From Paenibacillus sp. FSL H8-0548 (GTDB taxonomy: Bacteria; Bacillota; Bacilli; Paenibacillales; Paenibacillaceae): DNA of 64,000 bases. The notes beneath the pieces are model-generated. The model was not told the origin of the DNA, searched no databases, and worked only from the letters and a program-made list of their open reading frames with translations. The position numbers and the translations under genes were made by a program. How positions within the stretch are numbered: the first letter of the stretch is position 1; each line of letters begins with the position of its first letter. This document shows, piece after piece, positions 45,704-58,673 of this stretch. The stretch lies in the NCBI RefSeq assembly GCF_038630985.1, contig NZ_CP152049.1, positions 5,352,501-5,416,500 of the forward strand, written 5' to 3'.

Positions 45704-46357
45704 ATGTTTCAAGCTGTAGTTGATTTTTTAAAGGATTTCGGGCCACTAGGCTTGTTTATTCATGCGTTTCTGGATGCTGTTATTTTTCCCATTCCTGCTT
45801 TTTTTCTTCAAGTTTCATTAAGCATACTAAATCCATCTACCGCATTATGGCTGGCAACAGTGGGCTATATCGCCTGCCTCCTAGGTACACCTGTCGGGTA
45901 TTATCTTGGGAAGGTAATGGGCAAATCAGTCCTATATAAGTTTCTGAAGAAAGAATGGATCGATGCTGCAACAGATCGATTTCAGAAGAACGGTGAAGCT
46001 GCCATTCTTATTGGCTCCTTTACCCCCATCCCCTTTAAGGTTTTCACCATTTTGTCAGGCTGCTTAAACTTTCCAATATGGAGATTAATAGGCTACGCAG
46101 CGATCGGACGTGGTTTGAAGTTTTATATTGTTGGTCTCTTGTTTTATTTCTACGGACGTGCGGCGGAGGGCATGGTTAAAAATGTATCCTTGTATATCTT
46201 CGTAGTCGCCGTGCCTATCATCATTATTTTCCTGTTGATTCGCAAGAGAAGAAACAAAAAGAAAGCGCTGGCAAATAAGCAGGCCGAGGCTGCAGCAGAG
46301 CAGAGCGGGCAGGTTATACAAAGCGAAAACACAAGCACAGTACAAATTGATTCCTAA
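45704..46357 (+). CDS. VTT-domain (YqaA/DedA-like) membrane protein
   Basis: This 217-aa protein has about five membrane helices and the VTT pattern: re-entrant HAFLDAVIFPIPAF near 21-34, GTPVGYYLGKVMG near 64, and GSFTPIPFKVFTILSGCL near 105. It belongs to the SNARE-associated/VTT superfamily, whose members are flippase-like. A basic cytoplasmic tail (RKRRNKKK) and a polar C-terminus follow. AAAGGGAG is about 9 nt before the ATG. A TATAAT at about 45570 may be its -10. The terminator at 46411 ends it and appears to be the parent of the tandem array beyond. Confidence 0.88.
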   Translation: MFQAVVDFLKDFGPLGLFIHAFLDAVIFPIPAFFLQVSLSILNPSTALWLATVGYIACLLGTPVGYYLGKVMGKSVLYKFLKKEWIDAATDRFQKNGEAAILIGSFTPIPFKVFTILSGCLNFPIWRLIGYAAIGRGLKFYIVGLLFYFYGRAAEGMVKNVSLYIFVVAVPIIIIFLLIRKRRNKKKALANKQAEAAAEQSGQVIQSENTSTVQIDS

Positions 46358-46410: not shown

Positions 46411-46461
46411 AAAAGAACACATAATTGCTTTGTTACTATAAGCAACTATGTGTTCTTTTTT
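46411..46461 (+). terminator. rho-independent terminator after the VTT gene
   Basis: The stem AAAGAACACATA / TATGTGTTCTTT has an inner TTGCTT / AAGCAA extension and ends in six T's. Its right half (TAAGCAACTATGTGTTCTT) is the template-like first unit of the tandem array that follows. Confidence 0.9.
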
Positions 46462-47111
46462 CTGTACGTTTTCGACCGTCTCCAGCCACTAATCCAACCT
46501 CATAAGCACCTATGTGTGCTTATCGTGCAAGTATGTCTGCTGTTTTTACGCCATAAGCACCTATGTGTTCTTATCCACACGATTTGACCGTCTCCAGCCA
46601 CTAATCCAACCTCATAAGCACCTATATGTGCTTATCGTGCAAGAATGTCTGCTGTTTTTACGCCATAAGCACCTATGTGTTCTTATCCACACGATTTGAC
46701 CGTCTCCAGCCACTAATCCAACCTCATAAGCACCTATATGTGCTTATCCGCACGATTTGATCGTCTCCAGCCACTAATCCAACCTCATAAGCACCTATAT
46801 GTGCTTATCGTGCAAGAATGTCTGCTGTTTTTACGCCATAAGCACCTATGTGTTCTTATCCACACGATTTGACCGTCTCCAACCACTAATCCAACCTCAT
46901 AAGCAGCTATATGTGCTTATCGTGCAAGAATGTCTGCTGTTTTTACGCCATAAGCACCTATGTGTTCTTATCCACACGATTTGACCGTCTCCAGCCACTA
47001 ATCCAACGCCATAAGCACCTATGTGTTCTTATCCACACGATTTGACCGTCTCCAGCCACTAATCCAACCTCATAAGCACCTATGTGTGCTTATCGTGCAA
47101 GTATGTCTGCT
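46437..47111 (+). repeat. tandem array of 12 hairpin units (51-bp and 61-bp types)
   Basis: Every unit begins with a small hairpin, ATAAGCAC-CTATRT-GTGCTTAT or the variant ending GTGTTCTTAT. Type A (51 bp) continues CGTGCAAGAATGTCTGCTG to TACGC; type B (61 bp) continues CCACACGATTTGACCGTC to CAACCT. The order from 46437 is: B-like (64 bp), A 46501, B 46552, A 46613, B 46664, hybrid B 46725, A 46786, B 46837, A 46898, B 46949, B 47010, partial A 47071-47111. Copies are nearly identical. Short open frames across it are by-products of the repeat. Confidence 0.95.
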
Positions 47112-47295: not shown

Positions 47296-48312
47296 TTATA
47301 GTGCGCTTCCGCCAAACACCATACGATACTCCCAGTGAGTTCCTTCAATGCTGCTAACCGTAACGCCGCCGCCCTCAACCGAATACGTATGCAGCACCTT
47401 GCCGTCTCCTAGATAAATGCCATCGTGCGAAATCGTTGCCTTAGATTTATCTATCCCGCTATATGAGGATGCTTTGGTGCCTTTGTAGGACATGAAAAAA
47501 ACAAGATCCCCACGCTTCAACTGCTTCCAACTCGTCTTGGCTCCGCCCTTATCCTTCACATACTGACCTTGCTGACGTGAATCTGCTGGCAGCTTAATCC
47601 CAAGGGCATCCAGGAAGGCTTGTCTTACAAAATCAGAGCAATCAAATGTTGTTGTTGTGTTTCGATTTGAGCCGTACTCATAAGGCGTGCCCAAATACTT
47701 CATGCCTGCTGCAATTATTTTCTCCACTTTTGCGTCCGTTGACAACTCAGGAGCAGTTACCCCGCCGCCCCCACTATTTCCGTTATTTCCTGATCCATTA
47801 GAAGGGATAGAGCCTGTTATGGTTAGAAATGAATCTTGTGTGCTAACATAACCGCGAATACCGTTTCCATCCTGTACCTCATACCAATAGCTGTTGGTTT
47901 TCGCAAGAATGGTTATCTGCTCACCCTTCTTTAAATAGCGAATCCTCTCACCAGATGTGGATGCAGCCTTTCGAAACGAGACCGATGCTTTAGCTACTGC
48001 GTTGCCGGTTTGAACCGCAGTATCCTTTTTAAGCTCAATATATTGCGAAGAAGTTGATATGTATCCGGTTTTGCCTGAGGAATCCGTCACTTTGTACCAA
48101 TACGAATTCACCTTATCAATTACCGTTACTTGCTCGCCTTTCTTTAAGTTGCGAATAATCGATGCTGATGTAGAGGGAGATGTGCGCATATTTACGCCGG
48201 ATTGTACCTCTCCTGTTTGTGCTGCCAATGCTGCTGGTACTGAAATCGAGCTAAACAATAATGCAGCCGTTAACGTTGCTGTTGCTATCCTTTTTTTCAT
48301 GGTGTAATGCAA
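47296..48312 (-). CDS. secreted NlpC/P60 peptidoglycan hydrolase with two SH3b domains
   Basis: This 338-aa protein has a signal peptide (cleavage likely after ALAAQ near residue 32), two bacterial SH3 domains (about 36-93 and 105-165, each with VNMRTSPSTS or VSFRKAAST starts), a Gly/Ser/Asn linker (about 170-187) and an NlpC/P60 domain. That domain has catalytic Cys in TTFDCSDFVRQAF, His in ISHDGIYLGDG and a third polar residue near HTYS. It cuts gamma-D-glutamyl bonds in wall peptides. The TTG at 48312 lies 8 nt after AGGAGG, better than the ATG four codons on. It is transcribed towards the tandem array. Confidence 0.93.
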   Translation of the reverse strand: MHYTMKKRIATATLTAALLFSSISVPAALAAQTGEVQSGVNMRTSPSTSASIIRNLKKGEQVTVIDKVNSYWYKVTDSSGKTGYISTSSQYIELKKDTAVQTGNAVAKASVSFRKAASTSGERIRYLKKGEQITILAKTNSYWYEVQDGNGIRGYVSTQDSFLTITGSIPSNGSGNNGNSGGGGVTAPELSTDAKVEKIIAAGMKYLGTPYEYGSNRNTTTTFDCSDFVRQAFLDALGIKLPADSRQQGQYVKDKGGAKTSWKQLKRGDLVFFMSYKGTKASSYSGIDKSKATISHDGIYLGDGKVLHTYSVEGGGVTVSSIEGTHWEYRMVFGGSAL

Positions 48313-58232: not shown

Positions 58233-58376
58233 TATGCACCACTCCAACTTAAATCCAGTATCACACGGCATCTCATCAACTAGAGCAAGTGATTTAGTTT
58301 TCTGCACTCATGCGCTTCTGCTATCCTGTTGCTACACTACTAATCCTCTACTCTACGGAAAGCTCTGCTGCTTTAC

Positions 58377-58522
58377 CCAACATACTGTTCTTCCGACACA
58401 CTAATGCTACCCCTACTCCTACTTTAGCCAACACGCTGTTCTTCCGGCACACTAATGCTACCCCTACTCCTACTTTAACCAACATACTGTTCTTCCGACA
58501 CACTTACGCTACTCCTACTTTA
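58377..58522. repeat. 51-bp tandem repeat, about 2.9 copies
   Basis: Units start at 58377, 58428 and 58479, each CCAACAyrCTGTTCTTCCGrC then ACACTAATGCTACCCC; the third is shortened to 44 bp, and a decayed fourth start follows at 58523. The period is a multiple of three, which keeps a plus-strand frame open. Confidence 0.85.
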
Positions 58523-58673
58523 CCAACACTCTTTTCTACCGACGCACTAACGCTACACTGCACTTTTTACAATGTACGACCATCTCCTCCTCATGCCTCT
58601 AATGCTACACTGCACTTTTTGCAACGGAATGCCCTCTAACACGCTCATTTCCTGCTATTTCAGCTAATTCTGC

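Follow-up and report, generated by a model that had tools for sequence, protein, structure and literature searches.

Dispersed palindromic repeats of bacterial chromosomes are usually explained either by a transposase (REP/RAYT) or by RNA hairpins. BIMEs alternate classes of spacer and bind gyrase or IHF, and in the neisserial intergenic mosaic elements (dRS3/RS) short inverted repeats alternate with repeat-like spacers in intergenic arrays. Eukaryotic centromeric satellites are tandem arrays with a short protein-binding box, which are homogenised locally and diverge fast between loci and species. REP sequences are described as dispersed palindromes of 20-40 bp that occur singly, in pairs or in clusters and lie downstream of coding regions and mostly at convergent or co-directional junctions (PMC3733652); a term search of that survey's main text gave no mention of Paenibacillus or Firmicutes. 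Noc-type sites are palindromic and chromosome-wide, and in B. subtilis they are missing from the terminus region (PMC4331003).

Here we analyze a palindromic array in a 64,000-nucleotide stretch of DNA (the window) from Paenibacillus sp. FSL H8-0548, whose genome (the own genome, G000) is one contig of 7.35 Mb. The array lies between the convergent genes of a VTT-domain membrane protein and an SH3-NlpC/P60 protein, each of which has a terminator-like hairpin (Table 1). Sequence reading and a pattern scan gave 12 palindromes of about 22 bp (46438-47093), so that the tandem array of 12 hairpins seen in an earlier note on this DNA is upheld as 12 palindrome-like units, the first one degenerate. 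The consensus palindrome is ATAAGCAC-NYATRN-GTGCTTAT. The 22-mers start at 46438, 46502, 46553, 46614, 46665, 46726, 46787, 46838, 46899, 46950, 47011 and 47072; their spacers of 29 or 39 nt give steps of 51 or 61 bp with one exception of 64, the order being 64, 51, 61, 51, 61, 61, 51, 61, 51, 61 and 61 bp, and these starts bear out the 51-bp and 61-bp tandem units of the earlier note. The array scored up to 1206 in Tandem Repeats Finder. Two types of unit alternate: a palindrome with complementary arms is followed by the short spacer and a mismatched one (GTTCTTAT) by the long spacer. The alternation is broken twice, at 46726 and 47011, where 61 follows 61; the alternation and recombination described before therefore stand, and the "one hybrid" has to be replaced by two recombination junctions.

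The first palindrome departs from the pattern at 3 of the 18 positions that it defines and is, as had been noticed before, also the right arm of the VTT terminator. The left arm of this terminator (46411-46432) is a degenerate palindrome too, with 4 mismatches. More probably the VTT terminator co-opted degenerate end units of the array, and this is the direction that we infer. As a check against chance, the pattern at up to 3 mismatches was found 299 times in the own genome and its reversed control 0 times; 20 regions of 12 kb from the own genome, which had been taken for GC skew, gave 0 matches of the same pattern. An assembly error is unlikely as the source of the array because the genome is one contig, the copies differ from each other and the same architecture is seen at further loci and in further assemblies. 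Rfam at the gathering threshold gave four tRNAs and nothing else in the whole window. The window also has a second minisatellite at 58371-58556, which is non-palindromic and has a 51-bp period too, in about 3-4 copies.

Table 1. Coordinates of the array, its parts and the neighbouring features in the window
Feature	Positions	Strand	Evidence
Whole array, 12 palindromes (first degenerate), 29- and 39-nt spacers	46437..47111		sequence reading, scan
First palindrome, degenerate, same as right arm of VTT terminator; next palindrome 64 bp on	46438..46459		
Palindrome with complementary arms ATAAGCAC/GTGCTTAT, then 51-bp step	46502..46523		
Short spacer, 29 nt (example)	46524..46552		
Palindrome with one arm mismatch ATAAGCAC/GTTCTTAT, then 61-bp step	46553..46574		
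Long spacer, 39 nt (example)	46575..46613		
Hybrid unit: complementary-arm palindrome with long spacer (61 after 61)	46726..46786		
Second place of 61 after 61; hybrid junction immediately upstream	47011..47071		
Last palindrome, then partial short spacer up to 47111	47072..47093		
Intrinsic terminator of VTT gene, formed by two degenerate palindromes in inverted orientation	46411..46459	+	-18.2 kcal/mol in scan
Terminator-like hairpin on far side of array, facing NlpC/P60 gene	47178..47239		
VTT-domain membrane protein gene, convergent with next gene	45704..46357	+	PF09335
SH3-NlpC/P60 protein gene, convergent	47296..48312	-	PF08239, PF00877

Arrays of this kind are dispersed in the own genome. 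BLAST gave 57 matches in it and a model search gave 157 (150 of 1,816 candidates scored), and about 30 loci of the chromosome were found to have such arrays beside unrelated genes. The earlier note had suggested that the array grew from the VTT terminator and had named the same units beside unrelated genes as what would speak against this; they were looked for in the own genome and are present at these places. When the own loci were written out, the 51/61 alternation recurred and the largest array had 45 palindromes, the copy number across arrays being 2 to 45. The spacer sequence is specific to each locus, with a mean identity of 0.95 between the copies and their own locus consensus (39 loci), in agreement with the high identity between copies first noticed in the window. 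The mean mutual spacer identity is 0.62 for 15 main-family own loci and 0.48 for 266 other non-orthologous pairs. A CRISPR array is ruled out, as whole units including their spacers are near-identical within a locus.

Some own loci have further particulars. L047 (G000:C1 about 4509700-4510870) carries a 10-bp duplication in most of its long-spacer copies, which is a clear example of homogenisation within a locus. The array at L025 (2043-3627; G000:C1 about 6117100-6118730) is split by an IS-like insertion. By eye, L017 has the end sequence of this insertion in its interior and L014 and L046 have it at their edges, which looks as though insertions preferred to land in arrays. A left module like an IS end plus terminator, a resemblance by eye, is common to L012, L019, L022, L026 and L027, and a right hairpin module is common to L013, L023, L027 and L031. 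Insertion-sequence-borne cargo was considered and rejected: several own loci share these modules, but the window array is among those that lack them, so that they do not belong to the core element.

The spacing was analyzed at 39 loci, 19 own and 20 from five other genomes, each of which has two or more units of either kind; smaller loci were left out. All 39 have 51 bp as their most frequent short step. The most frequent long step is 61 bp at 36 loci, 62 bp at two and 71 bp at one. The spacers have a mean pairwise identity of 0.44, compared with 0.30 when one of them is put in the wrong orientation. Palindromes with up to 2 mismatches, taken without a neighbour filter from the array loci fetched for the own and eight other genus genomes, gave 477 steps below 100 bp; 438 of these equal 51 or 61 bp and 462 come within 1 bp of it. 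A looser set with a neighbour filter gave 522 and 554 of 580, respectively. Under neutrality, and with as few as 0.02 indels per substitution, a rough star-tree estimate leads to a changed short spacer at 9 of the 39 loci, and because the loci share ancestry (19 are own) this estimate, like the permutation tests given below, overstates independence. Larger indels of the spacers go by ten or twenty, namely +10 in L047 (7 of its 9 long spacers) and in one copy of L072, and -20 in one copy of L074. Other changes of step are +7 (one copy of L076), +5 (one copy of L055), +3 (the edge of the window array) and several of 1-2 bp, and L069 has one step of 36 bp. Steps of 41, 51, 61 and 71 bp are near 4, 5, 6 and 7 turns of B-DNA. 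The columns conserved to at least 90% in the 39-locus alignment are the palindromes together with A31, T43 and G88. In the model of alignment A1 the columns 31, 43 and 88, and also 92 and 98, are strongly conserved spacer positions which may be extra protein contacts.

The arms were compared in 78 locus-consensus palindromes, where TAAG and C8 are near-invariant on both arms. Positions 6/17 form Watson-Crick pairs in 43 and other combinations in 35 of the 78 (permutation p 0.70), and positions 7/16 form them in 55 and other combinations in 23, of which 8 are G-U (permutation p 1.0); Watson-Crick pairs are thus no more frequent at either place than the composition of the columns predicts, and neither pair covaries. 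Positions 10/13 have fewer Watson-Crick pairs than expected (28 vs 39), with G-U in 25 of the 78, and the only covarying pair is 1/22, which is lineage confounded. In this test G-U did not count as a pair. Since the loci share ancestry, its outcome is an indication, and as far as it goes the arms appear to behave as two independently tolerated TAAGMRC half-sites of a dimer more than as a stem. As RNA, four folded palindromes of the own genus gave -2.8 to -10.5 kcal/mol, and in the window array there is no T-run directly after the palindromes. An array of intrinsic terminators is ruled out by this weak folding and the missing T-run.

The placement along genes is strongly biased. At 59 loci, some of which hold one or two palindromes only, with genes called as ORFs of at least 90 aa, 26 junctions are convergent, 32 co-directional and 1 divergent. 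Of the 32 arrays at co-directional junctions, 27 are nearer to the 3' end of the upstream gene (Wilcoxon p 3e-4). A scan for terminator-like hairpins gave one on 60 of 78 sides facing a 3' end and on 11 of 24 sides facing a 5' end; it dropped gaps below 15 or above 400 bp and reached about 32 nt further on the 3'-facing stretches than on the controls. The hairpin thus usually lies between the 3' end of the gene and the array, which places the arrays mostly beyond terminators. With a hairpin of this kind already in front of the array, and with palindromes that fold weakly and have no T-run, the transcription sink suggested in the earlier note is unlikely, while its other suggestion of a protein-binding array is supported as one option.

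For the distribution along the chromosome, 31 own positions were taken as loci, several of which are single or degenerate units. The largest array-free gap of the own genome (3.18-4.49 Mb) surrounds the terminus, which is near 3.70 by GC skew, and that of G033 (3.10-4.65 Mb) also surrounds it (midpoint 3.78, dnaA at contig start). The p values for G000 and G033 are 0.004 and 0.01 in a post hoc joint test, 0.088 and 0.41 for gap size alone, and 0.012 and 0.15 in a test of plus/minus 700 kb around the terminus. The largest array-free gap of G353 (p 0.002) is off-centre from the terminus. A depletion of arrays around the terminus is at most suggested by these values.

The relatives were searched at genus and family level. 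With up to 2 mismatches the palindrome pattern matched 14 of 51 genus genomes, eight of which had 5 to 282 sites each and the remaining six a single site, and the reversed control pattern gave one match apiece in six genomes. The genus model R1, a sequence-only model from 39 loci which contains the spacing, matched 16 of the 51, two of them marginally, namely G024 (E 9e-4, no array visible) and G041 (degenerate). The other 35 have no array by the R1 search, which arrays with other half-sites would escape. Among 394 genomes of the family, a search that applied stricter filters and scored few candidates gave matches in 19 (15 from the own genus, 1 from genus g2 and 3 from genus g16) and none in 375, where again other half-sites would escape. 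The TAAG pattern at one mismatch gave three single matches only in other genera. As many genomes are without arrays by these searches, the system looks dispensable. One further locus, L122 (G038:C1 about 64478-65607), combines regular 51/61 spacing with palindromes that are strongly degenerate; its genome has a single other model match, a weak one.

Many arrays stand at orthologous junctions in different species, for example L018/L070/L065/L077, L045/L049/L064, L051/L071/L066/L058 and L061/L076/L068, so arrays are old at some junctions. The spacer identity at orthologous junctions is 0.44 to 0.82 in ten pairs compared. The copy numbers of the first group are 45, 5, 6 and 2 palindromes, several of the assemblies being drafts, and the orthologous junctions of G022 and G018 have 9 and 2 palindromes with flanking proteins 99-100% identical, in drafts where repeats may be collapsed. 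The variable locus proposed in the earlier note is supported to the extent that the copy number is likely variable.

At the VTT junction itself, the 1.5 kb or so next to the gene are free of arrays in all 19 relatives examined, out of 50 others with a VTT match; three of the 19 have one isolated match with 4 mismatches each. Where they were legible, the terminator stems of the 19 are unrelated to that of the own genome. The array at this junction was probably gained in the own lineage, with loss elsewhere as the alternative. By eye no target-site duplication could be defined at the VTT locus because the intergenic flanks differ too much.

Other half-sites occur in related bacteria. The weak model matches in genus g16 are arrays of GAGAG[CA]AC-NYATRN-GT[GT]CTCTC palindromes, in which the outer half-site is GAGAG/CTCTC instead of TAAG and the spacing is about 50/61. 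At up to 2 mismatches there are 153 such sites in G372, 91 in G353 and 57 in G374, and at most 5 in the other 19 of 22 genomes. Two samples from G353 were not chosen by spacing: its 44 zero-mismatch sites gave 13 steps below 130 bp, namely 34, 50 (five), 51 (three), 60 (two), 110 and 111, and 20 evenly spaced regions gave five such steps, all of 51, 61 or 63 bp. Steps of 49-52 or 60-63 bp make up 31 of 37 in the loci fetched by palindrome pattern, 36 of 43 in the eight loci found with R1, a model that contains the spacing, and 64 of 74 in L189-L196, which were picked from a listing that let clusters be seen. Neighbouring sub-arrays of g16 keep the outer GAGAG/CTCTC with A4 or T4 cores and unchanged spacing, and many palindromes of this genus have such a core. 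In L160, L162, L164, L189, L193 and L195 adjacent sub-arrays have YATR, A4/T4 and other cores with the same outer arms, and several of these sub-arrays are groups of four palindromes with about 50-61-50 spacing. The one A4-core palindrome that was folded is stable at -16.1 kcal/mol and more hairpin-like. Within the own genus G014 has TAAGAGC-type sites, and G082 of genus g2 has TTAGC-type sites with steps of about 52 bp. A spacing that is retained almost unaltered in related bacteria while the sequence is changed suggests an undescribed DNA-binding system. In the open-licence papers of PMC no description of these arrays was recognised.

The reading we favour, and which we hold to be somewhat probable, is that of a dispersed chromosomal family of phased arrays in which each palindrome is most likely the site of a predicted homodimeric DNA-binding protein and which has a role at the scale of the chromosome. 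Each palindrome would bind one dimer, and with sites alternately 51 bp (five turns) and 61 bp (six turns) apart the bound dimers would all face one side of the helix. Dimers aligned in this way may assemble cooperatively into a nucleoprotein patch past the terminators, in gaps that are mostly silent and often lie between convergent genes. Unequal recombination or slippage would multiply the copies and homogenise them locally, while selection would keep the spacing and the half-sites and let the spacers drift. The half-sites would change between lineages, presumably along with the binding protein. The role of such a patch would most likely be chromosome-scale, like nucleoid organisation, insulation or anchoring between genes, and not the control of a single neighbour.

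The main rival is a mobile and essentially selfish repeat, whose units would be cut and copied by a putative recombinase or transposase; the fixed spacing would then reflect the needs of the enzyme, and the arrays would gather at safe sites downstream of genes. Such mobility would fit the VTT junction, where of 20 loci examined the own one alone has the array, so that arrays arise at new places or get lost, and it would fit the numerous related arrays of the own genome and the flank modules that resemble insertion-sequence ends. However, many arrays remain at orthologous junctions across species, the VTT locus gave no definable target-site duplication, and the Y1 transposase (RAYT, PF01797) is missing from all 10 array-rich genomes; of 20 genomes searched it is present in one only, the arrayless G003, and the same search was positive in 5 of 14 control genomes. 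Phage and plasmid collections searched with the window array, and viral contigs searched with two exact patterns, gave no match, in collections which may omit records near the own genome; phage or plasmid cargo is ruled out on these searches. We regard the selfish repeat as unlikely, though it deserves to be taken seriously.

A second rival takes the palindromes as arrays of RNA or cruciform hairpins, that is transcribed or extruded stem-loops which act as terminators, RNA stabilisers or processing sites. The palindromes are largely able to pair, the A4-core one of the second genus strongly so, the VTT terminator contains degenerate units, and between genera the outer arms change on both sides with pairing preserved. 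Against this, the inner positions 6/17 and 7/16 do not covary and often hold non-Watson-Crick combinations, a terminator-like hairpin usually stands between the gene and the array, no T-run follows the window palindromes, and Rfam adds nothing to the tRNAs of the window. The near-whole-turn steps would also have no obvious reason in single-stranded RNA. Hairpin arrays are thus quite improbable in our judgement.

Neutral minisatellites, that is functionless local slippage of a once-dispersed sequence, would account for the wide range of copy number and for the homogenisation within loci, but are very unlikely, as steps and half-sites are kept while spacers diverge, nearly the same steps recur with other half-sites in another genus, and the placement bias is strong. 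An origin of the array from the VTT terminator, suggested by the resemblance of its right arm to the units, is hardly credible when some 30 further loci, and other species too, have arrays of the same family and the 19 relatives have none at VTT.

For the large family described here, no Y1 transposase in the 10 array-rich genomes, no inner-arm covariation, and near-whole-turn steps despite spacer divergence were found. If a protein binds, nature would here provide a series of binding arrays across many species, in many states of copy number and in at least two half-site lineages, and the co-evolution of binder and site and the role of phased arrays in chromosome folding would become directly testable. 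The arrays may also serve for strain typing as variable loci.

Compared with the known systems, REP/BIME is the nearest kind. Like REP/BIME, the present arrays are mostly intergenic, downstream of genes and seldom at divergent positions (1 of 59); unlike REP/BIME, they have near-fixed 51/61 steps and are homogenised within loci and divergent between loci. Two defining features of REP/BIME also fail, as the Y1 transposase is missing and no conserved tetranucleotide tag (GTAG or CGTC) stands beside the palindrome in the 39-locus alignment, and membership in this RAYT-associated class is ruled out on these two. The dRS3/RS elements have another motif and another host, and to our knowledge neither helical spacing nor lineage-specific half-sites are known for them. 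The motif of the arrays also differs, as far as we know, from those of Noc and SlmA. A gap around the terminus, as described for Noc-type sites, is seen in G000 and G033, with weak statistics and with G353 not fitting; unlike Noc-type sites, the palindromes here are grouped at fixed steps, up to 45 of them in one array. Centromeric satellites are an analogy only, since the present arrays are bacterial, short and dispersed at many loci. On this analogy we put forward, as a tentative idea that we ourselves rather doubt, that the family may be a new chromosome-architecture system of the Paenibacillus family, in which a fast-evolving DNA-binding protein would co-evolve with dispersed phased arrays that mark silent intergenic gaps, along much of the chromosome, as places where large nucleoprotein patches assemble. 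Such a system could be likened to the satellite repeats of eukaryotes and their binding proteins, and its signature would be the five- and six-turn layout with TAAG-type sites in one genus and GAGAG-type sites in another.
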